Shown here piece after piece: positions 2,029-64,000 of a stretch of DNA of 64,000 nt (its first letter is position 1; the number at the start of each line of letters is the position of its first letter). The stretch covers positions 992,001 through 1,056,000 of the forward strand of contig NW_008805073.1 of NCBI RefSeq assembly GCF_000004825.1. Direction: 5' to 3'. The stretch is from Heterostelium album PN500 (taxonomy: Eukaryota; Evosea; Eumycetozoa; Acytosteliales; Acytosteliaceae). The notes below the pieces were generated by a model. That model was given only the letters and a program-made list of their open reading frames with translations. It did no database searches and had not been told where the DNA came from. Both the position numbers and the translations under genes were made by a program.

Positions 2029-2413
2029 TCATAATCATAATCATTAAGAATAAATTAATTTTTATTGTAATTTGTATAATTATTAAAAAACAAAACAAAA
2101 AAAAAATCAAATATTTATTTATATTTTTAGATTGCTCATCTAAATAGAATGTATGTACTTTTGATGAATCATCTGATTATGACTCATAATCTTTGCAGAT
2201 CCGCACATGTTTTAGTAAAAGATAATTAAAAAAAAGTGATTCACCATCTTTAACCCGAATCACTTCCTTTTGAAACATTTAAATTTTGACTTTTTTTTTT
2301 TTTTTACTAATTTTTTTTTTTTTTTAATCGACCTCATCATTTTTGTTAAAAAATAACACGATTGTCATTTTTGTTTGTCTAATTGTTGTTCTTGTCATTC
2401 TTAACTTCAAAAG
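2029..2413. other. Intergenic: spc25 3' end, inverted repeat, next promoter
   Basis: An AATAAA lies about 20 bp after the spc25 stop. The rest is poly-A and poly-T tracts, plus a 9 bp inverted repeat: AAGTGATTC at 2234-2242 and GAATCACTT at 2257-2265, with a 14 nt spacer. The repeat sits about 150 bp before the next ATG. It could be a dyad operator or a 3'-end hairpin. No gene was seen. Confidence 0.5.
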
Positions 2414-31900: not shown

Positions 31901-33205
31901 TGTTCGATGAGCTAAAGATTTTATCATCAATTACAAAATTAACATCCAAATCTTGTTCTGATGATCCACCAAGATCATATCGAGATGTTATGCAAGATAT
32001 CTTGTCATTAAATTGATTGCGACTGAACGATCCATGAATCAAATTACAAATTGAAGTACCAATCGATATCGATTCAATATCTTGGAGATATTGACCAAAA
32101 ATATCGATTGTGTCTCCTCCATTCCATACACTGTGTGGTGGATTTATATTTTGAATTTCAGGATCTAAAATAATGTTATTATAAAAATTAATAAATAAAC
32201 AAAATATTTAATATTGAAGTTAATTTACTTACGATAAATAGTCAGTTTTACAGATGATGATATTGATATTCCATTTAAGTCAATTTCGATAACGAATTCT
32301 TGCAAAGTTCCTGATTGAATATTAATTATTGGACTGTCACATGACAAAATTCCATTTTGATGGATGACATTTAAACAATCTTGTTGTGCAATTCGAACGG
32401 TTGGTGTGCTTGTCAGTTGGACAATATCGAATCCAAATATTGAAATTCTCTTACTGACTCCAGAAGCTACACTGTCTGGAATAACACTTTTTGTACTCGG
32501 TAATATATACTTCAGATTTCTTCGAGCATCTATTTCCAATCCAGTATAGAATCGAATCTTGATAGTTGAAATTTTTGGAGTATTGGAAACTGGAATATCA
32601 CAAATGATTTGATTATTATCAATAGATTTGATATTAACAGAGGTGGTGTCATCAAAGATGACTTCTGGTAGTTGGTCAAAACTATTAAGTCTAAGATGAT
32701 TTCCACTCATTATCATTTCTATTCCAACCACATCTGTATAAACTTGTTCAGGACTTATCATTATACTTGGTTCTTTGATTTGAATGTTAATTTTAATGAA
32801 TTTACGAAATGAATGAAAGATAGATAAATACATACCAACATATTCGAAATCTTGTTCGAAAAAGTTTAAAGTCGATCCTTGAAGTTGAATGATGAACTTA
32901 ACGGTTCCAATTTCTGAATTGATTCTCTTTTGACGTTGTAAATTAGATTCTGGTAAACTTGGTACAATCCATTCAAATATTCCGGGAGATACTTGTTGAA
33001 ACGAATCGAAAATTGTTTCTTTGCCAGCATTTACAACTTTGAGTGTTGGTGGATTCGCAACTGGGAAATCAGGAGATACAATTCGAAATTTATTGTTTCC
33101 ACCTCGATAAGCAATCATTGGTGACATCGATTGTATCGTGAATGCATTGCTGTAGAGAAAATCGAATCCCAATAATACTATTAATATTATTGTTATACGA
33201 TTCAT
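25921..33205 (-). CDS. Gene C: secreted IPT/TIG protein with DNase II domain, HxK motifs intact
   Basis: Nine exons on the minus strand: 33205-32836, 32772-32233, 32164-30432, 30370-29616, 29563-29500, 29430-29386, 29314-28374, 28316-28231 and 28165-25921. The product is about 2,260 residues. Order: signal peptide (MNRITIILIVLLGFDFLYSN), seven or eight IPT/TIG domains, DNase II domain (~750-1180), an unnamed Lys/Asn-rich region conserved with A and B, then about five IPT/TIG domains ending YNLI. There is no mucin tail and no membrane helix. The second HxK exon is tiny (64 bp) and easily missed by gene finders. A one-base loss in an A-run near 30550 shifts the frame just before the first HxK; gene D is intact there, and the C frame resumes cleanly into exon 4. 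Likely a secreted acid nuclease tethered by IPT domains; substrate is inferred. Confidence 0.8.
29287..30832 (-). other. DNase II catalytic domain of gene C
   Basis: The start is SCLGPPLPDKSNNAVDWWF, followed by VYKI and EYLYIDS, then YYMFFNDQPEG. The first HxK is GHVKG (HVK codons 30505-30513). FPGY and HFFCYTF follow, then EHSKLGI as the second HxK (HSK codons 29552-29560). The end is CFGDSNRHNGQ-GRGGGLVC, matching the DNase II ending (GDxNR...RGGGxxC). Both catalytic His-x-Lys pairs are present, unlike A and B. DNase II cuts DNA at acid pH without metal, leaving 3'-phosphate ends. The HSK motif only appears after splicing exon 4 to exon 5. Confidence 0.82.
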
Positions 33206-33886
33206 TTCTAACTTAGTAGATATATTTATAACTTTAAAAATATTCCTTTTTTTTAAAATACAACTCTATAACTATTAGTTATTGATTTAACGAAAATAAC
33301 TATTTTTACACTAGTCACTCTCTAAAATAAACAAACGAGTAAAGTGTAACAAAAAAAAGATAGGTTTGAAAACACACGGTTCACCAATCATATGACCAGA
33401 TGAACAATCGCTCTAAATAGCGATTAAAAAGAATAACATAAACACTTCAATAAAGTTTAGATCTTTGTGCAATTCGTCGAACAAAGCAAGATTTTTTTAT
33501 GTTTAGAGAAGTGTTTTTGCTTATAATGCAAAGATCTAATTTAGGAATATCAAAAAGAATATGAAAATCAGTACCATTCGATTACCAGGAACATTGCACG
33601 GTTTCATCGAATTTTAGATATTTTTAAAAAACAAAATTTGACAAGAATTTAAGATGATTTGCAAAAACCGAGATTTACGAAAACATCTTAAACTACAAAA
33701 AATCCACTATCACCACGACTAGTCAATCAAAAACCTTAGACTTTTTAAAATACAAATTTTGATTAATTTTTTATTTTATTTAATTTTTGATATTCACTCT
33801 TCTATGGTCTTTTCATATGTTTGTAAAGAATTTAAGTATTATTAATCATATAATTAGAATATTAATAATTAAGTTAGAGAACAATA
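33206..33886. promoter_or_regulatory. Divergent promoter region between genes C and B
   Basis: About 680 bp serve both genes. There is a hairpin AATCGCT-6nt-AGCGATT at 33406-33425. A larger imperfect inverted repeat has AACACTTC (33441-33448) and TAGATCTTTGTGCA (33458-33471) on the left, with GAAGTGTT (33508-33515) and TGCAAAGATCTA (33527-33538) on the right. The paired dyads between two head-to-head genes could be shared regulator sites. No ORF was seen. Confidence 0.45.
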
Positions 33887-36800
33887 ATGAAAGAGTTTCG
33901 AACTTCTCATTTATTTTTCTCTCTTTTAATTATTTTTCATTTTTGTACGACAATTATTTTTTTTTAATTTTTTTGACAATCAAAAACAATTTTTACTAAT
34001 TTATTTTTTATTTTTTATTCTATTTATTTTTCGATCAAAAACGAAAAATTAGATATTAACAATGTTTTATCATTGGTAGTTCCGATAACAAATGTTACTC
34101 CATCACCTATTGCCACAATTTCCTCACTAATAACAGTGATTGGAAGTAACTTTAATGCTGCAACAATCATAACAATCAATTCAACGTATTCGTGTCCTTC
34201 TACAGTGGTGGTCAGTAGCACCCAAATTATTTGTAATGCACCTGCACTTCCATTTGTTGGAAAAGCCATTGTTCATGCAAGAAATCCACCTTTGGACCCA
34301 ATAACCACTGAGCCAGGATTTACCATTAATGTAGGGGTACCACAACCTGCAATTACGCTCATTAAACCAGACATCCTTACGAATGTAGCGTCGAACAGTC
34401 TTACGATCACTGGAAAGTACTTCATCCCAGATGTCAAGGTTTTGATCAATAGTACATATCCTTGCATCCAGGAGATTGCCACCGAAACATCTTTGATTTG
34501 CCACTTTGCAGCTGTTCCAATTGGAGGTACCAATTCGATGTATCCAATAACAACAGTTAACTCTGGTACAAGTTCAGATCCATATTACATGAAATTCAAT
34601 TTACCAACTCCGGTTTTCGATGAATTCAATGAAGATATCCTTATTGAAAAAGATACTACGTATCTATTCAAAGGTTCTTTATTTGTTTGTGATAAAGTAA
34701 AGATTTCGGTAAATGGAACTTTCGATTATTTAACTATTCAAAATTGCAATCCAAACCGAATATTAGTTAAATATAGTGATCCCACTAAGACTCTTAATTG
34801 GTCATTTCCTGTTATTATTTACAATGATAACGTCGCTTCCAACTCTAGACAAATTTCTTTTCGGGGTATGATATTAATTACCATCTTTCAAAAATTCTAA
34901 ATTCAATCTCTGTATATTAACTATATTTCATAATTAGCACCGATGCCTATTGTAGATAGTGTTATTGAATATGGAATGTCATACAAGCTTTTTACTGGTC
35001 AATTGACGATTCTTGGTAAAGAATTTAGAAAGGAACTTACATTCGTATATTTTAATGAAGTAAGATGTACTACAATAGAAATGACTATGACAAAAATCAT
35101 ATGTCAATGTTCAACAGTAACAACTTATGGAAATTATGAGCTCCAAGTTTGGAAAATATTTACGGGATACACAGGCTTTACTGTTTTTTTGGCATGTAAG
35201 ATATATTTATTATTTAAAAATGATAATTTCTTTTACTAATTTAAATTTCCCAAGCAATTCCAACAATTACATCATTCAGTCCAAATGTTTACCAGTATGA
35301 CCAAACAACTGATTTAAATATTGTTGGTGATGAATTTAATAGAGGTCTAACCAAAGTGTATGTTGGAGATGTACTCTGTGATATTACGAGCATAATTAGT
35401 AAAACTCAGATTATCTGCCATTTCCCTCAGATACAAAGAACTGGACCCACTTCAATCGTTGTTAGAAATACTGGACATGGAGATTCAAACACTGTTTATG
35501 TTGATTACCGTCCACCATTTGTATATATCACTTCAATTTATCCCACCACAATTTTGAATACAATTGATAGTTTTATTACTGTCAGAGGTCAAAAGTTTAC
35601 TTCATCTTCCTCGGCAAAGTTGACTCAATTGGATATGGCACTCCTATCAGAAACTATATTTACGAATTCATCTCAAATCATTGTAAAAGTCTTGGCAAAA
35701 AGCATGGGTGGTACGTGGAATTTGACAGTGTTTGATGGTGGAAAGTCTTCAAATCAGGTTCCTGTTCAACTTCTCAGTTCGGTGTCAAAACCTACAATCA
35801 CTTCAATCACACCATCTAGTACATTATACACCAAAGCCACTGCTATTTCTATCGTTGGTACCGGATTTATCGATGGGGTCACCAATGTATTAGTCGATAA
35901 TGTATTGGTAACATGTTCTGTTACAAACACATCATTGGTTTTCACCTCTCCACTCTTGAACAAAGTTGGAACTTTCAATGTTGTTGTGTATAACGGTGAT
36001 AGAGCTATCAATTCTACAACCACTATCAAATATTATCCACCAACTCCAACTCTCACACAAATTTCACCAAATTCAGTTGAAATCACATCAGGTACAGCAA
36101 TAACTTTAACTGGTACAAACTTTATTTCAGGAATATCGAAATTACTTGGAAATGGTGCAACCATTCCAATGACAAGCATAACATCAACCAGAATCATTTT
36201 CAACTCTCCAACCAACACAGCTGTAAATGTTGTATGTAAAATTTCAAATGCAGTTGGTTATGATTCCAATACATTATCACTTACATTCACAACAGTGAAA
36301 CCAGTTGTTACCAGTTTTTCACCAGTTAATGTAACAAATATCCAATCGACCAGTATAATAGTCAAAGGTTCAAAGTTCGTTCCTTCATACACAATTTCAG
36401 ATGCTATTTTCGATAATTCTAAAGTGAGATGTACCACTTCAGTTTCAAATCCAACAACTCTCACAATCACCTCACCTGTAAAGGCTGAAGTTGGACCAAA
36501 GATATTCATGATTACCAATGGAAATTTGGTTACGAATATATCAATCAATTATGTATCACCACCTATAACATTGACTTCGATTACTCCTAGTTCAATGGTG
36601 GGTAATCAAGAGCAAGTTATCACATTAAAAGGAACTGGATTTGATTCTAGACTTACATCGATTGAACTTCCAAATTTCTCATGTCCATTCTCATTTATTA
36701 ATTCAACTGTTATCATTTGTACAGCTGGAAAATCAACAAACTATGGAATAAAGTCTTTAAGATTGAAGAATATCAATGAATATTCCCAATCAATAAACTT

Positions 36801-39800
36801 TCAGATTTTTGCACCTCCAGTAGTAGTTTCCAATATAGAGCCATTATATCATATCTTAAATCAACAATCAAAAATAACAGTTATTGGTCAGAACTTACCT
36901 TCAAATACTATAATTCAGTGGAATGGACAATTTATTGTTCCAGAATCTATTACAGAGACTAGAATAATTGCCAAAAACGTAATCTCACCAACCACTATTG
37001 GAAAATATCCGATAAATGTCTTGTCAGGATTTTTAGGCATTTCACCAATATCTTTTTCTATATATTATGTTCGAGGACCCAAACTCATAAATGCTTCACC
37101 ATTACCAATTTATTACAAGTTTCCAACAAACTATAATGCTTTATTATATCTATCGTAAGTAAAACAATGAAAGTGACTATAAATATCCATTCTAATGAAC
37201 AAAGTTTAGTGGTGAAAATCTCATAGATCAAGTAAATTCAAAAACAAAAACAATTGTTACTTTTGGAAATCAAAATTATACTACAGTAAGTGAAGCTGTT
37301 AGTAATGTAGCCGTATATCCACCAGTAGACCAATTAAATTTCATCGATGTATTTGTTACCACCTATGGTCAATTTGTTTCAAATACTCTTAGGCTACCAG
37401 TCGCTGTTGCACCACCAATATTTTCAAATCTAAAACCCATGATGATGACTAGTGATGTTACAAATTCTTTAACTATCATTGGACAATACTTTTTGAGTGG
37501 AGAAACAAATGTATATTTAAGTTTTGGAAAACTATCATGTTCAAATACTTTTGAAACCATCATGTGTTCAGTACCTCCAACAAATTTTTATGGAAGCACA
37601 CCCGTCACCATCGAAATGATGAAAAATAATTATACTTATGGAGCTATTACATTTAGAAGACCAAACACCATAATCGATACAATATCTCCAAGTCAATTAT
37701 ATTTTAATACAACAAATCAAATGACAGTAACTGGTTCCAAATTTTATGATGGCTCAACTTCCATCATTATTTCAAATCTCAATGCATTTCCAAATCCATC
37801 TTACTCGATTTCAAGTGTGACTCAAAATCAAATTATTTTCGATTTAAATCCATTTACCAAGGTTGGAACATATTCGATCAGTGTTAAAGTGGATGGTTCA
37901 TTAAATACAAACAGTAACTCACTGGTTGTTGATGTAATTCCTGGTAAAATTACAATTAATTCGATCAATCCAAATAAACTTCAATATGGATTAAGCAATC
38001 AAGTTGTCACTCTAAAAGGTTCAAACTTTTATTATGGAACTGTTATTCAATTGGATTCTGTGAATTGTCAGATATTATCACAAACTGAAGATACTATTTT
38101 GTTTTCAGTTTCTGAAATCACTTATTTTGGAAAATCAGATTTTGTTATTGTCCAAAGTCCACAAGCAGATACACTGTTTAATATGGAGATAGATGTTCCA
38201 TATCCAGTTATCAATAGTATGAATCCATCAAATCCATATTCTTATCTTGGCAAAGATATCGAGATAATTGGTTCGATTTTCACTCACACCATCTCTGTTA
38301 CTATTAATGGAATTAATTGTTTAACCATTCGAAATTCACTAAATTCCATCACAATTACAACACCAAAGTTAAAATCAGGAACTTATCAAATGCAGATATT
38401 CAATACTCCAGAGATTTTCTTGACAACAACCATCGAATTTATCGATTCAACACCGATCATTCAATCGATTTCACCAATTTCAGCAAGCATCAATGATATG
38501 AGTATGACAAATAGTATGATCACAATCATTGGTTCACAATTCGTCAACAACTATTCAATCATCAAAATTGGATCCTACCAATGCGAACCAAGATATATCG
38601 ATGAAACTCTAATTCGTTGTTTGATGCCAGAGGTCACTGTTGAAGGTGAACTTTCAGTCAATGTCAATAATGGAGAGATGATATCAAACACATTCCACAT
38701 TTCATACATCAATTCACTTCCAATTACATCTGTGACGCCTAAATTCGTCAATTATAATCAATCCAACGATATCACCATTACAATCACTGGATTTAATTTC
38801 AACAATCTACTTGATAGTCAAGTATTTATTGAAAATAAATCTGGAACAAAGAATCAATGCAATATTCTCACAAAAGAAGATGAAATTATAATTTGTCGAT
38901 CTCAAATGATTCAATTTGGAAAATATCAAGTTATCTTATATTCGAAAGAATTACATTCAATTCCATCTGATTTCAGTATTCTTGATGATTCATTGGCTTG
39001 CAAATCAAATTCTAGAAAACAAGTATCATGGTGGTTCGCCAAGAAACTTCCACAATCGCAATCATACATCTATGTTGACAGTGATTCTCAAGATATCATT
39101 TATCTTTCTGATATTTCCTCAATTACAAGTAGTTTGGCACTCACTTTGAACCAAATCATACTTGATAGCAATACACACAATGGATATGTTGTTTATAATG
39201 ATCATCCATGGTTTGATGATCTCAGTGGACAACTTTCACATTCAGTTCAAGGATATCCAATTGGTCATTCAGGAGAACTCAATAAATCACTTGGAAAAGG
39301 TATTCTTGTTGCTCAAACCTATTTCAACTCAACATATTCACCTGGTTTCCACATTAAACATTCAATGGAAGGATTCCCAGTTCCACTTCCAAATGGATTG
39401 TTCAAAACACCTTCAAGTCATCCATCAAGTTGGATTCCAAATGATTATCATTTGATTCCAAAACAAGGTGATGATTATTCACTTGGTCATTCATTTATGT
39501 GTCATTCATTCATTGATTCATCTGATTTTGTGAATGGAATTCAATCATTGAAACCATTCATCTATTCATCAAACAGATTCACACCAACTTCTACAACCAA
39601 CATATTCTCATCACTCTTTACTGACAGCACAACCAATTCATTCACAAGTAAAGATTGGTCAAAAGGATACTTTATTTCTGCTGGATTCAGAAATGATATC
39701 TTTACACCAACAAGAATTCAACCACTTTCAATCACATTGCCATCGAAATTTAAGATTCCATCAGGTGCAAATGCAATCACTGATGTAAAGTTACCAACTG

Positions 39801-42800
39801 AATTTATCATTCAAAATAACATTCCAACCAAGATATCACAATGGAAATCAGATATCGATAAAAGTTATATTGCATTCAATGATACACATCTTTGTCTTGG
39901 TGATTATTCATCAAAGACATCATTTGGTGGTGGAATTGCAGTTTGTGTGATCAATCAATTCTCAAGTGAATTCTTTGTTGAATCAATATTCAAATATCAA
40001 CAACAAAATTGTTCAACTCCCAAATGTGAAAATCAAATTCAAAATCAATTCTTCATTTCAATCAAATCAAAATTATTGTTGGACAATACCTATTCAAGCA
40101 ATAACAATGATTTACAAATGATTTTGAACAACATCGATTCAATTTTACCCAATACCAAACTCAGTGTCGGAGATTCAGGATGTTTTGGAATATTCTGTCC
40201 AATCACAGCTCCATACTCTGAAATCAAAGTAAATCCAACAGATTCAGTTGGAATATTCTCATTCAGAGGAAGTTACACACCTATTTTCAATTTGATACTT
40301 CAAGATACAAACAGTTCAATCACAATCAAATCCAATGGATCTCCGATATCATATTCAACATATAATATCTCTGGATCATTCACTGCAAAGACCAATGGTA
40401 ATATCCAAAGTAATAATATTATCGTTGCATATAAATTGATCCAAATTGTGAAGAAAGTCAGAGATAATCTTGGATTTGGAACATTTGGAAATATTGAATT
40501 GATTTTAAATAGCAATGGTATTGCAATTCTAAATCAACACAATGATATTCCAATCAAGATAGACAGCAATACACTTGATGTTCAATCATTATTCCGTGCA
40601 ATCAGTTATGATTTGATTTTGCAGTTAAATAGTGCAACTTCAAGTGTCGAACTTCCAGAATTGAATTTCGATTCATTTGAACTTTCAAAATCATCAGCAT
40701 TGTTGGGAGGAATGATCAATTTCATTTCAATGAAACTCAGACAACTTTCACTTCCAAATTTACCAATTTCAATGATTCAATCAATGAGAGACAGAAATCA
40801 ACAATTGATTGATATTGAACATTTCACAAGTTCAAGAATGTCAAGAAGAAATGCAATTTTATCACAAGGTTGGATCACATCATACCTCTGGGATTTGGTT
40901 GATCAAGAGAATGATGATTATCTCAATCCATCATTCAGAAGACCACCACACAGTGATAATAATTATGGAAATCAAATTGATTTCAAATATATTCTCCAAA
41001 CAATTCAAAACAACTCTTTGAATTCAGATATTCTCATATTTTCAGAACATTTATTCAATATTCTTCCACTTTGGAACACTCTCACAATTCCACATGCTCG
41101 TTCCATCATGATCTATAACAATATATTCGAATGTAACAATTGTAAAGTTGATAATCCACCAACTGTCAGCAATTCAACAGATTTATCAAATGTATTACAG
41201 TCCAAAGGTGTTTGTAAATCATCGATCGATAACTTAATAATGCCAACGATCGATGAAGTTCAATCATTTGTTTCATTTTGGTCATCTTCCTCAACAAACA
41301 ATTGGAATGACAATCAAGGAATATCGAATATCTATTCATCTTCATTCGTTTCACTCTATAACAATTCATTGTTATTGGAATCATTGATTCAAGTTGCAGA
41401 TCCAACACTTTGTGAATTCCAAATCGAAAATGGATATCCAGTCACACCAAAAGGTTTGGAGATATTGACAAGAGTTTTGGTCAATCAAATCAACATTGCC
41501 AACAAAATGATCAAATACAATGAAGTTTCAACATATTTTGTCAAAACAGAAACAACCAAAGGATTGACAATCATCACATACAAGAATTATCTTTGTGCAT
41601 TCGATATTGTTGATGAATCATCATTTGACAATGGACAAGTCCTATCACTTTGTCCATCAGGTCCAATTGTGACATCGATCACTGGAAACACAGGACCAAC
41701 ACATTCAAACAACAATGCAATCACTTTGATTGGTCGAAAACTCAGTGAAACTGGAGTCCAAGTTCAAATTGGATCAAAGAACTGTTCAATTCAAAGTCAA
41801 TCAGATTCTCAATTGATTTGTCAAGTTGGTCAAGGTGTTGGAACATTACCAATCATCTATTTCAATGTTAACACTAAACTTCCAAATGAAACACCACTCG
41901 ATAATTATGTATTCCAATTCAATCAACCAGTTATCACTTCATTATCAACCAACAGTCCAGTTAAGACCTATGGACAAAAGATCACAGTTTATGGAAACAA
42001 CTTTGGATTCACCAATGATGACACAACTTTATTTGTTGGAGATATTCAATTCAACATTGAAACATTCTCAACATCTGGAAACTCAGAACTATTGATTTTC
42101 ACGTCGAATGGAACTGGATATGGTAACATTGTTTCTGTTTATGTTGGAGACCAAAATTCAGAATTGAATAATCAATTCATTATCAATTACGATATACCTG
42201 ATATCAATTCAATCTCTGTCGATCGATCACCAACCTATGGAGGTGGAGCGATGACAGTATCCGGTACTTCATTCGGTCTCTATGGTGATATGACGATTAA
42301 TATTGGAGCTATTGAATGTTCATCAACAATTAGAATCGATGATAACGCAGCAATTTGTATAATTCCTCCACATGTGGCAGATCACCAAGTAACCATTGTG
42401 GTTGGTAACCAATTCTCATCGGAAGGACCAATGTTCAAATATGACAGACCAGTGATCTTTGAAGTTTTACAAACAAACAACACACCAACTTCAGAACCAA
42501 GTAGTTTTTGGATTATTGGAAAAGATCTTGGACCACAAGGTTACGAATTCCCATATATTTCATATTTTTTAAACCTGACGGTTGTCGAATGTGATGATGA
42601 TTATACATGTTATTACAATAAGACTTACACTGACGAAAATGACAATGACATTCCAATACCAACAGATCCTTACCATGATGGGTATTTTGATGCATATGTG
42701 GCAATGAATTCATCATATCGTTCAGTTGTCAACTTTGATTGCATTCAATGTGTTCTCAATCCTGGAATTGGACATAATATTCCAGTGAATATATCATATT

Positions 42801-45800
42801 ATGAAATTTCTCGAATATCATCAATGACTCACTTTCATTCAATCGTCCAACGATTTTGAATGTCACTGAAAACCAAAGTAATACAGATGGTGGAGCATTT
42901 ATTTCAATTATTGGTTTTGATTTCGTTCCAAATGAAATCAATGAAACAATCGATTATTTGACATCAAATCCAGCATATACTTATAATGAAGAGTATATTT
43001 ATAATCTTGAAGGACCATTGACATACAGCAATGCCAGTATTGCACAATATCTATTCAACAATATTACTTTTGTCAATTCAACATTGGTGACTGCTCAAAT
43101 TCCACCTGGAATCGGTGCAAATCACACAATATCACTTTTCATTGGTGGTCAAAATTCAACACAACTCTTTAACTTTTCATACAATGCTCCAAATATATCA
43201 TCGATTTCATATTCAGATACAATTGGTCAAAATATCACATTATCAGGTTGCAACTTCGTTCCCAAGAATGTTTCATCTGGAAATTCAAGTTTTGTTTTGA
43301 TCAACGGAACTGAATGTCAATCACCTCAATGGATTTCATCAAACACAATCAATTGTACTGCTTCTCCAGGTATTGGAAAGAATTTAACATTAACTGTATC
43401 GATTGGAGCTCAAAACAATACTGATAATACAACATTCTCTTATAATCGTAAGTTTTTCATTATAAATTTGATTATTTTATTTACTAATTTAATACTATCA
43501 TGAATATTTAGCACCAAATGTAAATAATGTGACAATGAGTAAAACAGATGGTGAGATTATTTCGATTATCGGTGGTAATTTCGTTCCAGCCAATATTTAT
43601 GCTTTCAAATCAAATGTAACGATTTTCAATGATCTTTGTGATAATATTAACTGGATCAATGATAATAATATTACATGCACTGTTAAAGCTGGAATTGGAA
43701 AGAACTTAACACTTTCTGTTATTGTTGGAGATCAACAATCAACCAATAATAATGTAACATTCTCATATTTACCACCAACCATCAAGAATAATGTGACAAC
43801 CGATACAAAAGGAGGTTCAGTTATCATTGAAGGAACCAACTTTGTTCCACAAAACATCGAACCAAAGAATTCAAATATTTCGATAAATGACAACAACTGT
43901 CAGAATATCGAATGGAGAAGTTCTTCCTCCATTAAATTTGATGTACCACCAGGAATTGGAAATAATCAAACTTTTGTTATTTTTGTTGGAAATCAAACAA
44001 CTGATCAAAAACATTACTTTGACTACAACAGTATGTATAGAAATTAATTCTAATTATTTGTTAATGAAATTATTAATTTTAAACTTTTTATTATTATTTC
44101 GAAATAGAACCAAAGATATCGAGTATTTCTAAATCCAAAACAGATGGTGAACAAATTACTTTGGCAGGTACAAACTTTGTGCCACTGAATGTTGAACCAA
44201 GAAACTCTAATCTTACAATTGGAACTCAAGCATGTAATAATATTGTTTGGAGTAGTGATACTCAGATTCTTTGTACGATTCCAAAAGGTATTGGAAAGAG
44301 TTTGAATGTAACACTTTTTGTTGGAAATCAGACCACTGAAGATAAACCAACTTTTGATTATATTGGTAAGTTAAACAAACATCCACTCAATTTCAATCGA
44401 TAATTAAATTAATTTAATTAATACTTTTTGTATTTTATGAATAGCACCTTCGATTAGCAGTGTAACGAATTCAAAGACAAGTGGTGAATCAATCACTCTT
44501 CAAGGTTCAAACTTTGTTCCTGAAAACGTTGAACCAAAGAATTCAAACATCACAATTAACAAGAATGTCTGTAAAGATCCAGTTTGGACAAGTTCATCAC
44601 AGATCATTTGCACAGCACCATCTGGTATTGGAAAAGATTTAGAATTATTATTATTTGTTGGAAATCAATCTACCACAACCAAATTCACCTATAAAAGTAA
44701 TGTATTAAATTTGAAAAATGAAAATTAACTATTTCATATTAATATCTGATTAAATATTTTTTTTTTTAGTTCCAAAATTGGATGATACCAAATACAAAGG
44801 AAATCCATCTGGAGGTGATTGGATAACAATCAAAGGTGAAAACTTTATTCCAAGTGATTTCGTTCAAGAAGTCAATCAAAAAACACAAGATAGTAACAAT
44901 TCAGTATCGATTGCCGACAAACAATGTCAATCAGTGGAATGGGTAGACTTTAACACTGTTAAATGTCAGATTCCATCTGGAACAGGTAAAGATAAGAATA
45001 TAAAGGTTACTGTTGGTACTCAGAGTTCAGAGAACAATCAATTGTTCAGTTATAATGCTCCTGTTGTCGAATCTATTTCTCCAGATAATGGTGAACAATC
45101 CTCAAAGAAACAAGTCACAATTAATGGAATCAACTTTGGTTCAAATCCTACTGCCACAATTGGAGATGCTGGTGAGTGTCAGAGTGTCGTGGTTCTATCA
45201 AAATTGAATGACAAAGAAAGAATTCAATGTAATGTTCCAGAATATAATACAAATGGTGCACAAATCGTTAGTGTAACATTGGATGGTCAGAAATCAAATG
45301 AAACCAATGTTAAATATACATACAATGGTGATCCAAAGATTGATTCGATTTCACCCACCTCTGGATCTGTCGATGGTAACTTTGAGATGACTGTTTCTGG
45401 AAAGAACTTTAAGAATGGCGATGCAACAGTGACTGTCTATTTCAACTCGAAATCGATTACACCAACATCTAAATCAACTGATACCATCAAATTTACAGTT
45501 CCTGAAGGTGGAGGTACCAGTATTGCACTTTACATCAAGGTTGGCAATTCACAAAGTAACACAAACAATGACTTCTCATATGATGCACCAAAGATAATAT
45601 CGATCACACCAGATGAAGGTCCTTATGACCAAGAAACATCAGTCAGTATCTCTGGATCAAATCTTGGTCTTTCATCTGATTCCTCTTCGACCACAATCAC
45701 AGTTGGTGGAAAACCATGCTCAAGTATTCAAGCTTCATCATCGTCATCAGTGAGCTGTACAGTTCCCAGAAACGAAGATGAAGGAGAAGTATATATTCAA

Positions 45801-48800
45801 CTTACTTTCAAATCTCAAAGTGCATCCACAACATTCAAGTACACCAAAGAAGATTCAAGTAGCAGCAGTGATAGTAGTGACAGCAGTGACAGTAGTCATG
45901 GTAGTGAAGGAAGTCATGAAGATTCAACTACCTCAACCACCTCAACTACTGCCTATTCTACCACCACATCAACCACAGGTGAAGTTTCAACAACCTCTAC
46001 TACTTCGACCACAGGTGGAGATTCAACAACCACATCTACAACCGTTGAACCAACAACAGCTACTACTGGTGGAGGCACTGATGGTGGTGGCCCTGGTGGT
46101 TCTGGAGGTGCTGCTGGCATTGGTGGCGCTGCTGGTATTGGTGGCGCTGCTGCTATTGGTGGTGCTGCTGCTATTGGTGGTGCTGCTGCTATTGGTGGTG
46201 CTGCTGCTATTGGTGGTGCTGCTGCTATTGGTGGTGCTATTGGTGGTGCTGCTGCTATTGGTGGTGCTGGAGGTGGTGATGATAATGGAGACCATACATC
46301 ATCTACAACCTCAACAAGTTCCATGATTTCTGGTTTCATAACAACTTTAACTACAGGTGAATTTACAACAACAGGAGAACCAATCACAACCACAACTATA
46401 TTGACAACCTCTACAACATCTACTACGGGCGGAACTACAGGTGGAGTTACTAGCAACTCTACTACATCAACAACATCTACTACTATAAGTACAGATTCAA
46501 CAACGGGAAGTACAATCACAACAAGTGGATCAGATAATTCCACCACGTCAACAACTGGTGAATTAACTACCTCTTCCACTTCCACCACTTCCACAACTGG
46601 CGAAACATCATCATCGACAACTGGTGTTGCAAACACCACCACTGGAGAACCCACTTCAACTTCAACGACTGGTCAAGATCCTTCGACGTCGAATTCTACA
46701 ACTGGTGGGGATTTAACAACGGGAAGTACAATCACAACAAGCGGATCAGATAATTCCACCACGTCAACAACTGGAGAATTTACCACCTCTACTACCTATA
46801 CCTCTTCAATAACTGGTGAAATATCATTATCGACAACCGGTGGTGCAAACACCACCACTGGAGAATCCACTTCCACCTCAACTACTTCTGATTCGACCAC
46901 CACTTCCACAACTGGTGAAATATCATCATCGACAACCGGTGGTACAAACACCACCACTGGAGAGCCAACCTCCATTTCATCAACTGGTGAAAATCCTTCG
47001 ACAACCACTTCAACAACTGATTCAACCACCTCTTCCACCTCCACCACTTCCACAACTGGTGAAATGTCAACATCAACAACTGGTGGTACAAACACCACCA
47101 CCGGAGAACCCACTTCCACTTCAACAACTGGTCAAGATCCTTCGACATCTTCAACCACTGGTGTAGATTCAACAACCTCGACCACAAGTGAATCAACAAC
47201 AACGTCTATCACCAGTTCGACCACAAGTGGAGATTCATCAACTTCGACCACAACTGGTGATTCAACAACCACGACTACTTCGACAACAAGTGGATCAGAT
47301 AATTCCACCACATCAACAACTGGAGAATTTACCACCTCTACCACTTCCACCTCTTCAATTACTGGTGAAATATCATTATCGACAACCGGTGGTACAAACA
47401 ACACCACTGGAGAACCCACTTCCACTTCAACAACTGGTGAAGATCCTTCGACATCCGCTTCTACCACAGGTGGAGATTCAACAACTTCGACTACAACTGG
47501 TGATTCAACAACTTCGATTACTTCGACAACAAGTGGATCAGATAATTCCACCACATCAACAACTGGTGAAATGTCAACCTTAACAACTGGTGAAATGTCA
47601 ACATCAACAACTGGTACAAACAGCACCACGGGAGAACACACTTCCACTTCAACAACTGGTGAAGATCCTTCGACATCTTCAACCACAGGTGGAGATTCAT
47701 CAACCTCGACTACATTGACTACCAGTGAACAAACAATCACCACCTCGACCACTGGTGGAGATTTAACAACATCGAATAATTCGACTACAGGTGGAGATAC
47801 ATCAACCACATCTACAACAGGTGAACCGACAACGGCATCTACCACTACTTCGACCACAGGTGGTGATTCGACAACCTCTACGACATCTACAACCGGTGAA
47901 CCAACAACAATATCTATCACAACTTCGACATCCACAACTACTTCGACCACCGGTGGAGATTCAACAACCTCGACAACATCTACAACCAGTGAACCAACAA
48001 CAATATCTACCACAACCTCGACAACAGGTGGAGATTTAACATCCTCAACTACATCTACAACCAGCGAACCAACAACAGTATACTTAACTACCACTTCGAC
48101 CACTGGAGATGACTTAACAACCTCGACCATATCTGGAGATTCGACTACCACCTCTTTGACTACTGGTGAATCAACCACCTCAGTACCCACAACCACAACC
48201 GGTCATGAATCTACCTCTATATCAACAACTGGAGGATCAAGCTCAACAACCAGTGAACCAATCACCACTTTGACCACAGGTGGAGATTCAACAACCTCTA
48301 ATAATTCCACAACAACTGGAGATTCAACAATTTCGACAACAACTGGAGATTCAACAACATCGACATCAGGTGGAGACTCGACATCCTCGATCATAGGTGG
48401 AGATTCAATCTCGACTACATTGACAACTGGTGAACCTACAATCACCAGTTCGACCACTGGTATAGATTCGGCAACAAGTTCAGCAATCTCGACCACAAGT
48501 AGTGATTCAACAACCTCGACAACAAGTGGAGATTTAACAACCTCGACCACAAGTGGAGACTCAACAACTTCTACTATTCCGACCACAACTGGAGATTCAA
48601 CAACCTCGACAACAAGTGGTGATTCAATACCTTCGACAACAAGTGGAGATTTAACAACCTCAACCACAAGTGGGGATTGGACAACTTCGACAACAAGTAG
48701 TGATTTAACAACCTCTACAACAAGCTCAGTATCTTCGACAACAAGTGGAGATTCAACAACCTCGACTAATTCGACTACAGGAGGAGATTTAACAACTTCG

Positions 48801-49460
48801 ACAACAAGTGGTGACTCCTCAACTTCAACCACAAGTGGAAATTTAACAATCTCGACAACAAGTGGAGATTTAACAACCTCGACAACAAATGGAGACTTAA
48901 CAACCTCGACAACAAGTGGTGATTCGACAACTTCGACAACAGGTTCAGCAACTTCGACCACAAGTGATGATTCAATAACCTCTACAACTTCGACAACAAG
49001 TGGAGATTCGACAACCTCGACCACAAGTGGGGATTCATCAATTTCGACAACAAATTCAGCAACCTCGTCCACGAGTGGTGACTCAACAACTTCAATAACA
49101 ACTGACGGAACAAACTCAACAACAGGCGATGATACTTCCACAACTGGAGATATATTAACTTCGACCACAGGAGTTATTTACTCTACTACATCCACATCTG
49201 GAGACTTTAATTCTTCGATGATATCAACAACTTCTACTGTTGATTCGACCACAGGTGAAATAAACTCTACACCTACCACCTCAATGATAACAACTAGCGA
49301 ATTGTTTATAGTCTCATCTTCTGAATCATCAACAACAACAGGTATTCCAAGTATTTCGACAACAGGAACTAGTATCTCACCTCTTGATTCTGGAATTTCT
49401 GGCGAAATACCTTCAACCACTTCTACAACAACTGTAATCAATACAGGAGAATCCCTCTAA
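33887..49460 (+). CDS. Gene B: giant secreted IPT/TIG protein, paralogue of gene A
   Basis: Nine exons: 33887-33944, 34053-34865, 34938-35195, 35255-37154, 37210-43447, 43512-44030, 44108-44365, 44445-44696 and 44770-49460. The product is about 5,000 residues. The short first exon supplies a signal peptide (FFSLLIIFHFYINNVLSL, across the splice). About seventeen IPT/TIG domains follow, then a DNase II-like domain without catalytic histidines, the unnamed conserved region, about a dozen IPT/TIG domains, a Gly/Ala block and a long Thr/Ser tail ending TGESL. The first half is much shorter than in gene A and diverged; the second half is nearly identical in sequence. One base is missing near 42804 relative to gene A, shifting the frame for a short distance before an open frame continues. 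Start choice rests on the signal peptide and a clean phase-1 splice. Confidence 0.78.
38990..39950 (+). other. DNase II-like domain of gene B, catalytic histidines absent
   Basis: VSWWFAKKLPQSQSYIYVDS opens the domain, then GYVVYNDHPW, SLGKGIL, PGFHIKHSMEGF and GDYSSKT-FGGGIAVC. The HxK positions read LGK (39290-39298) and IDK (39854-39862), as in gene A. A nearby GHSGELNK has a histidine but sits about nine residues upstream of the motif position and is absent from gene A, so it is unlikely to replace the catalytic one. Confidence 0.75.
45856..49457 (+). repeat. Mucin-like Thr/Ser tail of gene B with Gly/Ala block
   Basis: After the last IPT/TIG domain come a Ser/Asp stretch, a Thr/Ser segment, and a block of about ten GGAA(A/G)IG-type repeats (46100-46270), coded by GGTGGTGCTGCTGCTATT units. 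Then follow about 1,050 residues of Thr/Ser repeats such as TTSTTGEPTSTSTTG and TTSGDSTTSTTSGD. Gene A has Gly/Asp where B has Gly/Ala, so the low-complexity block changed composition after duplication. Confidence 0.85.
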
Positions 49461-53479: not shown

Positions 53480-55257
53480 TGTATAAAGTTTAGATACATT
53501 AATGAAATGATGCTAAAAGATGAAGGCAAAGCATACTCAATAATCGCTGGGAAGAGAACAACAACCAATAACCAAAACAACACGCAACAACAGGAAATAC
53601 ATACAACAACGAGAGAATTTGAGTTCTGGAGCCAACTGGAACCCAACATCTACGGAAGCAACCAACTACGACGAGCTTGAATGGATACAGAGAGTGAAAG
53701 ATAGCAACCATTTCAAGAACATCAAAGAGACCAAGTTTGAAATCGAAGGAGCTGACATATCCAACTACATTAAAAAAAAAAGAAGAACTGGTCAGCTCCA
53801 GGTCCTACTGGATTAAGAGATACCATGAGGCTAGCCGAAGCCTTCAATGAGTACCTATACCATGGAGTTCCCTAAATGGTTATGTGAAGGAATTACATAC
53901 CGGATCCACAAGGGAGGTGACCAAGAGGACGAAGCCAATTACCGACCAATCACATGCATTAACAACACATGTAAGATATTAACAGGAATAGTAGCCAAGC
54001 ACCTCCACCAGCACACCAAAGTCAACAACCAACTGATGGAAGAAGTACAGAGAGGTGGAAATGACCGATGTATGGGAACCTACGAGAATCTCTTCATAGA
54101 CAATCTATTCTTTGAGAGATACCCAGACATCAAGGTGGCATGGATAGACCTTACCAAAGCATATGACTCAACGAAGCACAGGTGGATCAAGTACATACTA
54201 CATATGCACAAGATAGACCTGAAAGCCAGATCAATCATTGAAAGACTCATGAGTAAATGGAACACCAAGATATTCATATCCAAGAATCAAACACAACTAC
54301 AATACCGATTACCAATGGAATCTTCCAAGGTGATGCTCTCTGTCCCTTTTTGTCCTGCCTTACCATAAACCCAGTCGGATACTATATAAAGATTAATTAC
54401 TAAAGCGCCAATAATAAGTATCACCCAACTGTCCCACCTTATGTTCATTGACGATATCAAAATGTACTCTCGTGTGACCGAAGAGATAATCAACACCTTC
54501 ATGGAAACAGACAAAGCATTCAAATCAATTGGAATGAAGATCAACAAAAGAAATGTGGAATTCTTGGAAAAGGAATTACTAAGGATATGCTACCGGAGGA
54601 ATGAAAGAGATACCGATAGAGACGAGGAAAATCTATAAATACTTAGGAATGTTACAACACCGATTAATCGATCAGAAAAAAACACTTTTTAATAAACACA
54701 AAGTGGCGAGAGAAAGATTTAAATTAATATTAAACTCCAAAATGTCAGCATGGAACCTAGCCAGGGCATTTAACTCTTTGGTAGTCGGATACCTGAGATA
54801 CTACTGGTTCATCGACATCCCAGACTACGCCATAGATACATTTAACAAGGAATTCAATGAGACCCTTTCAAAGAGAGAACTATTGCATAGAAACATGAGA
54901 AGAGATCTCCTCCACTTGGATAGGAAAGAAGGTGGAAGAGGATTCAACGAACTAATACTAGAATATAAGGTCTACAAAATCATCACAGCAGTTAAACTAC
55001 ACTAGGTGAGGAGAAACCAAGACCTTATGAGCTATGCATTGGAAACGAAGAACCCACTATACACCAGCGCAATGAGACACATGGAATCATTTGACTACAA
55101 ACTCATATTCAGTAAAGATGGAAAATTGCAAATACACAAGGATGGAGAAACAATACTATACAATCACGATGGGAGGGCCCTACAATCACAAACACCATTT
55201 CAGCTCACCTCAAAAATGTATATAGAGAACAACACCCAATCGAATCAACAGTTCTAG
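53480..55257 (+). mobile_element. Non-LTR retrotransposon (LINE) relic with reverse transcriptase
   Basis: Pieces of one reverse transcriptase appear in order but in several frames: FEFWSQL and YDELEWIQRVKDSNHF, NWSAPGPTGLRD, ANYRPITCINNTCKILTGIV, DIKVAWIDLTKAYDSTKHRW (motif with the first catalytic Asp), GIFQGDALCPFL, and LMFIDDIKMYS, the FxDD active-site motif. A thumb-like part follows (KYLGMLQHRL, then AWNLARAFNSLVVGYLRYYW). The order and motifs fit non-LTR elements of the R2-like kind whose RT lies in one long ORF. No LTRs were seen. The 5' end is missing and at least four frame changes are visible, so it is dead. The 3' boundary and any target-site duplication could not be defined. Confidence 0.75.
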
Positions 55258-58062: not shown

Positions 58063-61000
58063 TCAAATTAAATTATAAATATTTGATGATTGCCCACCAA
58101 CGATGATTTGAATAGATTGTGGTAGTTTAGTGGTCAAACATTCAGCAAGAATACTGGATTTGAATGATTTGAAAGTGGTGGTGTATCCATCATAGAATAA
58201 AACAATCTGTGAACTTTCAGTGACAGTGAATCCATTCTCGATTGGAACAAAGTTATTGCCTGATATTTCAATCAAATCATTCTTGATTATAACATTGTTG
58301 ATCACTGGCTTTGAATATGAGATTATTTGATTTGGTAAGAGTTCGACACCATTGATTGTTGCTGATAATCGATATGATTGTCCATATCCAGATGGAACAT
58401 AACATTCAACAAACAAATCGAATGAAGTGCAATCTAAATCGATTCCATTCAGTTTGACAACCAATTGTTCATTTGATGATAATCCTAATCCAAATCCATT
58501 CAATTGAATCAAACCACCACTCGTTGGAATTTCAGTGTTGTTGATATTTGTGATTATTGTTGAATAATATTCGAATTCTGATTGGATTGTTTGATCACCT
58601 GATTGGATAATGAGTGGTTGTTTTGATGTCTCATATTCCAATTGGAATTCAATGAAATTGTTGGTGAAATTATCAATTTCAATTTGATTATCTCCAATGA
58701 ATAATAGAGGTGGAAGATCAGAGTCTTCTTCATTTCCAAATCCATTTCCAAGAATTACAACTTTATCTGTTGGATCTCCTGATTTTGGAACGATTTTGAG
58801 AATTTCTGGTCCACCGAAACTGAATGATTGTGTTTTTAGTGTTCCTAATTCAAGTCTCGAAGATTGATCTTGAACAATAACAGTTACATGTCGATGATCT
58901 CCAATTGCATTCGGTGTTAAACATGCAATTGAATTTGATGAAATACTTAGAATTGGTGAACAATCAAGTTTATCATCAATCAAAACTCTGATATCTTTGA
59001 TATTATCTCCAAAATTTGAACCATAAATTGTCATGATATCATTTCCATAACTCTTGATCATTTCTGGTTCAATATTTGTGATCGTGGGAGAATCATATGA
59101 AAATATGAATTTTGATCTCTGAATATTGAATGTGATTTGTTGTGTTGAAATTTGAATCAAATTATTTTGACCTCTTCCTTTTGGAACTTGACAAACAATT
59201 TGTTGATTTGAAATTAATTCTGTTGAAACACATTGTTGTTCTCCAACTGAGAGTGTCATTGATGAATTGAATCTAATTCCATTGATTGTAATCTTATATC
59301 CACCATTGGTTGGTCCATTCAATTGATTGACTGATGTTATGATTGGTCCTGATGATGGACATGTCATATCGAAATTATTAGATTGGAAATCAGATTCACT
59401 GATCATTTGGAAATCACAAAGTTGTGAATTGATTGTCGAAATTATCATTCCATAAACACCATCATAAAAATTCGGTTTTGGAAGATAATACACTTCGAAA
59501 TCTCCAAATGTTGAATGAATTGTTGATTTACTCATCAGAATACTTTCAAGAATGAATGTTATCGAAACAATTGAAATTGGTGATGATAAGCTAATTATTT
59601 TTTGGTTACTTTCAGTTTGTTGGGTACTGAGATCGATTGAATTACCATCGAGATCACGATTGATTTCATCAATGAATTTGATTGCATGATTTTCAAATTG
59701 ATTGAAACTATTGATAATTAGTGTTTGAATTGCTTGACTTTGATCGTTGATTGTGATCCATTTGTCAATTGAATTCTCGAGATTTGACAATTCATTTGAA
59801 TTCAATGAATAAATATCTTCCAATCGAATTGATTTTGGTGTGATTGAAATTAATTGTTGAACTCCTGATCTGATGACTCTTTCATCTTGAACAAGTGGTG
59901 ATAGCTGATTGTAATTCTTGATTTCAACATTGTTCAAAATTGATTTTGAAAACATTATTGATTTCTTTTTAATCTGAGAATTGAATGAATTAACATCGAT
60001 TGGATTTGAAGGTACTGGAATAATATAATTATTAACGAGAATAGTTTTAAAGTTTTCTTCTGAAATGTATTGTTTATCAATGAATCTTCTCAAATTACTC
60101 ATGTTCAAGATATATCCATTCTGTCTTGCTTTGATAACTGTCTCCAATAAAATGTGAACTGGAATAATATTATCTTTGTCAATTCTTGAAAGTTTGCCTC
60201 CTTTTCCACCATTACCATTTGAATAGTTTGGATTCATCCAATCCCATGCTGCTTTGGCACTCCTTCTGAAAATTATATCTGCAGTAGGATTAACCAAATC
60301 ATGATTACTTAATAAGAAATAAAGAAAATTAGAATGAATAAAAACATTATTGAAAAAATAAATAATTATCATACTCTGGAAAACTTTCAATATTTTGAAG
60401 ATTAGAAAATACATTATTCATACATTTATCGAAATTTGGAATTTGCTTGTTCGACATTACCTAAAAATAAATAAATTAATTGATTTATCATAAAAATAAA
60501 AAATGAATTGAACATACATTGTAAAGTTTCTTTGAGATTGCTAATATCACACCATTTGCCCAATTTGGATTGTTTAGACCAATTGTGTAAATCAAAGAAG
60601 AAGAAGGTAGTGCACCAGATTGATAATAGATATAATGAAGTGTCATATAATATGCAATCTCTTCTTCACAAACCTTTTGAACTCCAAAAATGAATGGTGC
60701 TTCAAAATATGATTTCGAATTTGAATTTGATTGTGATTCCATGAATTGATAGAAGTTTCGTTTGGCATTTGGAAGATTCTTCATGAATTTCGATGTGAAT
60801 TCCAAAACTTTGAAATTATCATTTGAAGATAAATCAAATGTTCTCAAATTTTGAAGGGATCGGTAAAGGAAACCAAAATAACTTGGAAAATTGATTGGTT
60901 TACCATATTTCGGTTCTGTTATCAAAGAAGAAATTGATTTGTCTTTGGTGCATTCTGTCAATGTCGAATCAAAACTGCAAATAGAACCAACATCTTTGTC

Positions 61001-64000
61001 AAATGCAATGTAATGAAGTGAAAACAAGTCATTTGCCACATAATTCTTAATATCAGGTGGATTACTTGGTAGAATTGGTGCGATTGCATTACTTGATTTC
61101 TCTCCATTAGGAGCAACAAATTTTGTAGTGGTTCTTAGTGCTGGGAACTCAGCACTAATTTTATCAATAGTAGGAGGACTATTCTTTAGGTTTGGAGTGA
61201 TTTCATGAATCTCTCTTGGATATTTAGAAATGTGATTTCCATTAATGAAATCTTTAACCTCCACTTCATATGTGTTAGTCCATTGACCTCTTTGAACTTT
61301 GATTGGTTGTGTAACTGAGCAAAATAGATCTACTGAGTTTCCTTTATTGGGTTTTGTCAAATCATTATTTTTATCTACAACATTGTATTGACGGACCATT
61401 CTGTTGAATTGATATGAAAGTGTTGGGTGTTGTATACAAACCAGACCACCTCCTCTACCAGCTATAAATTATATAAATAAAATAAAAGAATTAGTATTAA
61501 AAATAAGAAAATGATTTGAATATTATAAATTACCTTGACCATTGTGTCTGTTTGAATCACCAAAACAAAAATAATTTTCTAAAATTATTCAAAAATTTAA
61601 TATATTGATGAATATGAATTAATTTAAATTGTGATATTACCTTTGGCATTTAGAGCCTGATCACCATAAGCAGGATACATCGGAATTCCTAATTTCGAAT
61701 GTTCCTAATTAATTGGTTAGATATTATCATAATTTTCTAGTAAAAGAAAAACTTACATTTGAATAACCAGAGAATTGAATAGATTTTGTTTCTAATAACA
61801 AATCATCATTTGGAATTCTGAGATATGGTGGAAAATTTAAAAATCCAACATTTGACACTCCTGAAGAAATATCAGTCTGAAAAGTCTTTGTTGCGTAAAA
61901 GAAATCCACAAAATATTTTCTATCCATTTCTTTTGCCAGAACTGTCCAAATATCAACTCCATCCACTAATCTTTTGAAAGAATCATCTTTTGTATTTGAT
62001 GTTTTCATGACAACATATTCATTTAGATTTGCATTGTTATTAATTTTAGCATCCACAAAGAGAGAATCTTTGTTTCCAATTTTCATAAAGTATTGAATCT
62101 TCAAATTTCCACCAATTTCGATTGGGTTTTTCTTCCACCAACATTTGTTTTCAAGTCCAATATTTTGTGTTAAAAGCGTTCCACAATCTTCAACAAGTCG
62201 TGTTTGATTTTTAGATTCTGGTTTGGTTCCTCTTTGTGTACGTGTTTTAAGAAGGACATTATAATTAATTGATAAATAATCATAAAGATAAGGGTATTTA
62301 TCTTGTTTGTCATTTGCCCATCTATTCATATTTTGAAAGACATTGTTTTTTTCGAGAAGATAACCATCATTCTTCAAGTAATACTCTGCAACATCATCAA
62401 GATGATTGAATGTATAACAAAAGAAATGTTGATTGAAATCTGGTCTTCCAAGGAATTTCACTCCATCTTTTGGTTCGAGGTATTCATCCTTATCATCTGA
62501 AGTATAACCTGGAAATGCTGAATTTTGAAACAAAGTTAGAAATTTAAAGAGATTGGAAAATTAAAAATAAATAATTACCTGGATTTGAATGATGAATATG
62601 AATTCCATTGATATGATCGTTGGCATCAGGATCTTCCCAAAATACCATTCCTTTAACATGTCCATTTGGCATCAATGTATTAAATCTTTTATTTTTTGAT
62701 TTAAATGTACCTGACCTTCCACCTTTTTCATCTCTTCCTTCAGGTTGATCATTAAAAAACATATAGTAATAATAACTATGTTGGTTAAAAGTAGCTTCAA
62801 TTGGACTGAATACACTGAAATCGGTAGATGTTGTATGTTGAAGGTTATCAAGACGTTTGAGTCGATCCATTGTTGAGTCGATATATAAATATTCGTTGGT
62901 ATGATGGATTTTATAGACAAACCACCAATCAACTGCATTGTTACTTTTGTCAGGAAGTGGTGGTCCAAGACATGATAATCTATTTGATTTGAAAACAATA
63001 TCATCTCCAGATGACACTCCATTCACTGTGATCGTCACTGAATGTGTTCCATAATTCAATAAATCTTTCATTTTACATATTACTTGGGTATTGGTGATTT
63101 TTTGAATTTTACATGATGATGATCCTACTGAAATTGATACTTGACCGGAAACAGTTCCAAAAGAAGTTCCAACGATTGTGAGAGTTTGAATAGTTTTCTC
63201 AAATCCTTGAATTGGTATTAATTTATCAATTTTCGGACCAACATAATCGATTTTGAAATTCGATGGATATGAATATTCATCATCATTTGATTTAACAATC
63301 AATGTAATTCCATAACTTCCTGACTTGTATCTTGGTATTTGACAAGTCAATTTTGTTTGTCTATTTAAAGTGCAACTGGATGATTGGATTTCAATTGATC
63401 CAAATCGAATCAAAGTTACTAAATCCAAATTAACTCCAATGATATCAAAATTACCACCACCTGTTGGGTTGGTATTTGTTCGTGAAACTTGTGTCACACT
63501 TGGTTCAACAAATGAAAATACTTTTGTTGTATCGACTGTTTGTCCTTTGATAGAAAATGAAATAGGTTGATTTGAGACTTCTCTTGGAGGTATTGAACAC
63601 GTGAATAAATTAATTGATGATCTTTCAAGATATTCACAATATTGATTTCCAATCTTAAATGAAATTACATCATCAAGAATCTCTTGATCTACTTCTGGGA
63701 AGTTATGAACTTGAATTGAAACTGGTGTGTATGATTTTGAATGTCCTCTGTCGATATTAATACCAACAAATGTTCCTTCTCCGATATTAATATTTAAAAT
63801 ATTACTTGTAATTCCATTGTCAATGATTGTCACTGGATAGCTTCCTGTTGCATGATTTTTGGTATCGAGTTGAAATGTGATTGTATTTGTTGATATAATA
63901 ATTGGTGTGAAATGAGTTTGACCAACTTGAACATTTGAATTTTGACCAAACCGACCTTGAACTTGAATATTCTGTAGACCTGGATTAACAACAGGATTTG
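58063..64000 (-). CDS. Gene D: secreted IPT/TIG-DNase II protein, paralogue of C (partial at window edge)
   Basis: Minus-strand exons: from the window edge to 62579, then 62517-61757, 61704-61641, 61578-61534, 61461-60518, 60460-60375 and 60307-58063. Exon lengths match gene C except for small in-frame differences (+6 and +3 bp). The visible part starts inside the N-terminal IPT/TIG array and covers the DNase II domain, the unnamed region and the C-terminal IPT/TIG domains ending YNLI. The frame is open throughout, including the A-rich stretch where gene C loses a base. No mucin tail. The signal peptide and first domains lie beyond 64000. As with gene C, a secreted acid DNase is expected. Confidence 0.82.
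61434..62975 (-). other. DNase II catalytic domain of gene D
   Basis: It shows VDWWFVYKI, EYLYIDS, FFNDQPEGRD, then PNGHVKGMVFWEDPDANDHI with the first HxK (HVK codons 62652-62660). The second HxK is EHSKLGI at the start of the 64 bp exon (HSK codons 61693-61701), and the end is GDSNRHNGQ-GRGGGLVC. This is the cleanest copy in the window and the best reference for gene C. Confidence 0.85.

Follow-up and report, generated by a model that had tools for sequence, protein, structure and literature searches.

The DNA considered here is a 64,000-nucleotide stretch of the Heterostelium album PN500 genome (contig NW_008805073.1, positions 992,001 to 1,056,000), called the window below. Within it lie four large paralogous genes, A through D, with a common design in which a DNase II domain is set between arrays of IPT/TIG (immunoglobulin-like) domains. 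The genes fall into two types, A and B on the plus strand versus C and D on the minus strand, and are arranged with A and C convergent, C and B head to head, and B and D convergent. Together they probably represent a tandemly duplicated family of large, secreted proteins.

A DNase II domain between TIG arrays

Gene D occupies 58063..63998 on the minus strand, with its stop codon at 58063 and its 5' end cut by the window edge. A full spliced model was built for this gene only, with introns predicted from sequence. Its seven exons (63998-62579, 62517-61757, 61704-61641, 61578-61534, 61461-60518, 60460-60375 and 60307-58063) encode 1854 amino acids; all of the introns are GT..AG, and the predicted exons are open throughout the visible part. 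A Pfam search of the protein returned DNase_II at 1.9e-30 (106.6 bits in two stretches, the curated cut-off being 23 bits) and TIG at 3.7e-56 over seven stretches, and the DNase II domain is flanked by TIG array on both sides. The first-pass annotation of this DNA had proposed just such an embedding from the letters, and the profile search on D bears it out, with significant matches to both families in one protein rather than the empty result that would have told against it.

The fusion is also evident in frames that need no splicing. In D a single uninterrupted frame (62544-63998) spans the upstream TIG array as well as the opening piece of the DNase domain, and that piece alone, unspliced (127 amino acids), matches DNase_II at 7.2e-14. 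In gene B, a single open frame of 1886 amino acids (37199-42856) reads TIG, DNase_II and TIG again, and the fusion is therefore independent of intron calls. The main open frame of A matches DNase_II at 3.9e-42 (145 bits) and TIG at 9.3e-71 in 14 stretches, that of B matches DNase_II at 2.9e-36 (125.7 bits) and TIG at 7.9e-60 in nine stretches, and C carries TIG (3.5e-34) and DNase_II (7.3e-08) in one frame.

Pfam and alignment place the DNase II domain of D at 61382..62951 (minus strand, with introns inside). At about 440 amino acids it exceeds the 326 positions of the Pfam profile, owing to an insertion between its two HxK motifs. The series of short motifs listed in the first-pass annotation was located within the spliced model, all on the minus strand: WWFVYK at 62927-62910, the first HxK motif (HxK1, GHVKG) at 62649..62663, the second (HxK2, EHSKLG) at 61687..61704, and an intron-split domain end at 61436..61561 made up of GDSNR (61561-61547) and GRGGGLVC (61459-61436). 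In an alignment with five bacterial DNase II proteins, GHVKG falls on the GHTKG/GHSKG column, EHSKL on DHAKW/DHSKW, and the domain end on ADINR/GDINR...KRGGG.

Built from 11 bacterial DNase II sequences alone, a profile scores D at 58.8 bits and aligns both motifs, and gives A and B 31.5 and 31.9 bits over the first half of the domain only. Among 500 shuffles of the D residues the top score was 8.2 bits versus 58.8 for the real order, which rules out chance similarity of D to DNase II. When bacterial genomes were scanned with an alignment of A, B and D, eight loci were recovered (four in Schlesneria, and one each in Desulfobulbus, Spirosomataceae, Crocinitomicaceae and a beta-proteobacterium). 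Wider sampling found DNase_II in 7/7 seed genomes, in 4/395, 6/399 and 7/397 genomes of three samples in which the seed genomes are counted again, and in 0/14 control genomes; the genome of locus L005 is outside the seven seeds. Both HxK motifs are kept in all 17 full-span bacterial open reading frames, some of which are near-identical (L001/L002, L022/L023). That count leaves aside duplicate loci (L009-L015), partial frames (L006, L007, L016, L017), the stop-interrupted L020 with one motif in each piece, and L030/L031, broken pieces without the family HxK. Nine of the 17 are 332-378 amino acids long and eight are 428-872, and none of the six scanned for a TIG or other second Pfam domain has one. 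One bacterial locus (L026:1063-2781) joins its DNase II to a lengthy Pro-Thr linker and to additional sequence at the C terminus that we take to resemble a carbohydrate-binding module; Pfam found only DNase_II there.

An eight-protein profile (five bacterial proteins with A, B and D) matched the PDB entries 5I3E/5UNB at 2.1e-109, mostly via the bacterial rows; these entries, of Burkholderia thailandensis DNase II, are the sole PDB relative found. Foldseek with a weak model of the B domain picked out 5i3e_B (1.1e-5) and 5i3e_A (1.1e-4), the next best match being at 0.93, with TM-scores of only 0.29-0.39. This fold match is not independent, because bacterial DNase II proteins were in the alignment used for folding and 5I3E was released in 2017. 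An earlier B model from 11 alignment rows had a mean predicted local distance difference test score (pLDDT) of 34.5 and was unusable.

Downstream of the DNase II domain, D continues into a middle region of about 630 amino acids without Pfam match (59362..61381, minus strand), partly common to A and B, and then into the C-terminal TIG array found by Pfam (58066..59361, minus strand). A Pfam search with the middle-region exon at 60521-61459 gave no family; an hhalign match (E 3.5e-5, probability 72%) covered the C-terminal edge of the region and the start of the next TIG. In B the region between DNase II and the second TIG array is about 545 amino acids long. Pfam yielded no match above threshold in it, with only sub-threshold noise such as HincII endonuclease at 0.068, and its PDB matches were marginal, all four being ecto-nucleotidases with a best E of 0.052. 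A heme peroxidase identity for the middle region was considered and rejected, there being no such Pfam match.

The other three genes were delimited less fully. Gene A (5254..25685, plus strand) runs from a candidate ATG at 5254 to a stop at 25685, as judged from Pfam matches and open frames, and reads as a signal-like N terminus, a long TIG array, the DNase II-like domain, the middle region, a TIG array and a Thr/Ser-rich tail. Gene B (33887..49460, plus strand; candidate ATG 33887, last stop 49460) has the same design. Gene C (25921..33205, minus strand; ATG 33205, stop 25921) is a near-identical paralogue of D, and 681 bp (33206..33886) separate the divergent start codons of C and B. Signal-like N termini are found in A, B and C (MNRITIILIVLLGFDFLYSNA in C), and the start of D lies outside the window. 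The first-pass annotation had called the protein secreted, a claim with which the N terminus of C agrees and to which the visible part of D cannot speak. Judged from these N termini only, the proteins are likely to be secreted, and in combination with the TIG arrays they point to proteins that are secreted or part of a matrix.

The C termini of A (21000-25685) and B (45900-49460) are mucin-like tails of Thr/Ser-rich, GDSTTS-like repeats. The TIG array of A also contains a direct tandem duplication (8559-9660 / 9653-10743) whose copies are 93.5% identical. Across the window GC content is 33.6%, and introns as well as poly-Asn/Gln and Thr/Ser-rich coding stretches are present. A broken retroelement lies between B and D (53838-54365), where Pfam recognizes a reverse-transcriptase fragment (RVT_1, 1.1e-7), and the segment at 2405-3720 is presumably a cis-prenyltransferase gene with a poly-Gln insert, judging by motifs it resembles.

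Motif state and divergence among the copies

In the alignment with the bacterial proteins, A and B show SLGKG and DIDKS in the HxK1 and HxK2 columns. At both the first position (SLGKG; A 14459..14473, B 39287..39301) and the second (SDIDKSY; A 15020..15040, B 39848..39868), all on the plus strand, the histidine is lost and the lysine kept; these two histidine-less paralogues go unmentioned in the first-pass annotation of the gene D piece. Both HxK motifs had been described as intact in C and D. The description holds for D, where they sit on the bacterial HxK columns, and fails for C, where an A-run between WWFVYK and GHVKG carries a one-base gap relative to D at about 30552 (30540..30560, minus strand). 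Because of this frameshift, the C frame carrying TIG and WWFVYK excludes GHVKG as the sequence reads; the break would mark either a pseudogene or a sequencing error. Frame disruptions of two bases in A (at about 15849) and one base in B (at about 42804) are also found.

The C and D copies are 95.3% identical over 6 kb, with 5329 of 5549 aligned exon sites identical (96.0%) versus 341 of 370 in introns (92.2%). Insertions and deletions (indels) in the exons have lengths divisible by three or cancel out as a 2+2 pair, with two exceptions: the gap at 30552 and another at the final base of the stop codon. Ratios of nonsynonymous to synonymous change (dN/dS) were computed by NG86 for single pairs, with no significance test, and the C/D count skipped 8 of 1854 codons. 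The most changed part of this pair is the DNase domain itself, with 62 of 441 codons altered, a dN/dS of about 1.0 and a dS of 0.08. Within it, the HxK1 part has 14 of 127 codons changed (dN/dS 1.33) and the insertion 45 of 244 (1.0), while the HxK2 end is conserved (3 of 70 codons, 0.38). Elsewhere the values are 0.56 in the N-terminal TIG array (20/345 codons), 0.46 in the middle region (29/628) and 0.29 in the C-terminal TIG array (14/432). The most divergent stretch at the nucleotide level (87-92% identity; D 62400-61594) overlaps the insertion between the HxK motifs.

Genes A and B are 94% identical over 6.9 kb (14207-21094 in A, 39023-45949 in B), a tract that opens two codons upstream of the WWF in the DNase domain. 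Local identity is 0.53-0.66 before this tract and rises through 0.76 and 0.90 in the first lobe of the DNase domain to 0.97-1.00 over roughly 14640-17240 (2.6 kb), a run that begins inside the DNase domain. At the protein level, the 600 amino acids before WWF are 32% identical (185/572) versus 91% (297/325) for the DNase domain. Such a boundary within a coding domain would point to gene conversion or partial duplication. Farther into the tract is a pocket of low identity (A 17240-17843, 0.66-0.84), after which identity climbs again. The dN/dS of the pair is 0.24 in the first 130 codons of the DNase domain, 0.13 in the next 195 and 0.80 in the middle region, and the low values in the DNase domain are consistent with selection on non-catalytic copies. 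Further gaps that are not multiples of three separate the two at A 18673, 19260 and 19596.

Some of these features could mean that the locus is a recent duplication block in decay, most of whose copies are pseudogenes, with the intact D persisting by chance. A, B and C each carry a frame disruption, dN/dS is near 1 in the DNase domain of C and D, and the reverse-transcriptase debris lies close by. That said, every gene is otherwise open over long stretches, the indels between C and D exons nearly all preserve the frame, and exons are more conserved than introns. Several parts have dN/dS of 0.13-0.29, though the middle region of A and B does not, and one-base gaps are a frequent artefact of sequencing through A-runs. 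Decay with chance survival of D is accordingly a very improbable account of the family.

A candidate tethered nuclease

The explanation we favour, with a probability of about 0.58, is that D encodes a secreted or matrix-tethered DNase II and that A and B are pseudo-nuclease paralogues of it. Having kept both HxK motifs, D is most likely a DNA phosphodiesterase of the acid type that needs no metal. Stalk and adhesive arms would be supplied by the TIG arrays, which would hold the nuclease at the cell surface or in a secreted matrix and not inside lysosomes. Since both catalytic histidines are replaced in A and B, these two would be partners that do not cut but retain the fold, and they may bind DNA or some other ligand. 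The first-pass annotation had likewise proposed a matrix- or surface-bound nuclease, perhaps acting on bacterial prey DNA or on extracellular DNA.

Several observations weigh against this picture. D is cut at its N terminus by the window edge, and frame disruptions in three of the four genes (A, B and C) may reflect decay or sequencing error. A dN/dS of about 1.0 in the C/D DNase domain, versus 0.29 in the C-terminal TIG array, could reflect relaxed constraint on the nuclease. A second bacterial subfamily profile (six proteins) gives D only 27.6 bits and leaves HxK2 unaligned. When the B domain was searched against the PDB as a single sequence, no DNase came up, the one match having an E of 0.73, and the B domain model used above, from a 22-row alignment, is weak (mean pLDDT 50.7, predicted template modelling score 0.49). 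With 19-residue hydropathy windows and a threshold of 1.6, no hydrophobic stretch that might serve as a membrane anchor was found in the 120 C-terminal residues of D, nor in those of the last exons of A and B. Maxima in the last 120 residues are 1.02 in D, 0.38 in A and 0.58 in B, and no window reaches 1.6 in the last exon of A. Values at or above 1.6 are internal only and borderline, at residues 1344-1365 of D (maximum 1.74) and in an Ala/Gly repeat in the last exon of B (1.67). No terminal hydrophobic anchor was thus seen, and any tethering would have to be provided by the TIG arrays alone.

The fast change of the C/D DNase domain, the fastest-changing part of that pair, also speaks for another possibility, that these proteins serve adhesion or recognition and use the DNase II fold merely as a module for structure or ligand binding, cutting being irrelevant or lost in most copies and D an evolutionary remnant. 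This possibility has to be taken seriously because constraint seems to act on the DNase domain of the inactive copies, dN/dS being low there even though both histidines are lost in A and B, and because dictyostelid IPT/TIG proteins include TgrB1/TgrC1, an allorecognition pair according to a preprint (PMC12324515); C and B also stand head to head. A precedent for widespread motif loss comes from Trichinella, where the part of the report at hand counts 125 predicted DNase II-like genes, one of them annotated with the HKD motif (PMC4148230). However, D retains both motifs together with the GDSNR...GRGGG block, and C and D differ little in the HxK2 segment. Tgr proteins are moreover given as transmembrane in the same preprint portion (PMC12324515), whereas the hydrophobic stretches seen here are the borderline internal ones of D and B. 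On balance we consider a purely adhesive or recognition role unlikely, if a serious competitor.

The proteins might also be ordinary lysosomal or phagosomal DNase II enzymes with accessory domains, digesting the DNA of bacterial prey inside the cell. DNase II enzymes are acid nucleases, and Ts-Pt is active in a narrow acidic range, as stated in the Trichinella paper (PMC4148230); signal-like N termini would be equally compatible with entry into the lysosome. Very large TIG arrays and the Thr/Ser tails of A and B are, for their part, typical of extracellular proteins and would be unneeded in a lysosome, and we hold an intracellular digestive role to be improbable.

Should D indeed be a secreted or matrix-tethered DNase II, social amoebae would possess an anchored enzyme for working on extracellular DNA, and catalytic copies would sit next to pseudo-catalytic ones. 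DNase II is otherwise known as an enzyme that stands alone, either lysosomal or secreted. In Dictyostelium slugs, bacteria are trapped by nets of DNA that sentinel cells release, as one study describes (PMC4773522), and a tethered DNase would be a candidate remodeller or recycler of such net DNA. A more elaborate version would have cutting (C/D type) and non-cutting (A/B type) DNase II adhesins act as matched pairs on the surface or matrix, either handling extracellular DNA (DNA nets cast against bacteria, for example) or taking part in recognition, with variants produced by conversion inside the DNase domain. Such pairing is a speculative proposal and distinctly unlikely. The four genes would also form a natural active/inactive set for probing functions of the DNase II fold beyond cutting.

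Comparison with known systems

The genes tgrB1 and tgrC1 are divergent neighbours. Dictyostelid IPT/TIG proteins, including Tgr, resemble the present family in their IPT/TIG arrays, in forming a duplicated gene family and in including one head-to-head pair. They are set apart by description only: the accessible portion of the preprint presents Tgr as transmembrane proteins with TIG/E-set domains, and a nuclease domain is unmentioned there (PMC12324515). The Trichinella DNase II-like expansion offers a likeness of another sort, since most of its members are annotated without the catalytic motif, and differs in that TIG arrays go unmentioned in the part of the paper available (PMC4148230).

Expansion of DNase II has been noted in dictyostelids as well. 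A five-species study lists DNase II activity among the Gene Ontology terms enriched in expansions shared among dictyostelids, and these expansions probably belong to the same general gene family as A through D; domain architecture and motif loss are unmentioned in the portion seen (PMC8535579). Among the open-access papers listed by searches on the architecture, none describes DNase II fused to IPT/TIG in its title or start of abstract. The DNase II family and its expansion are thus already known, and the TIG-embedded architecture with adjacent active and inactive copies is not known from the papers listed.

Comparison with DNase II itself (PF03265; 5I3E/5UNB; animal DNase II) brings out likenesses and differences. 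As in those proteins, the domain spans both halves, and D retains the HxK pair along with the blocks ND, HS and GDxNR...RGGG. Unlike the bacterial DNase II proteins, in which no second Pfam domain was seen in the six scanned, the domain in the window lies inside TIG arrays, and in D it carries an insertion between its two motifs.

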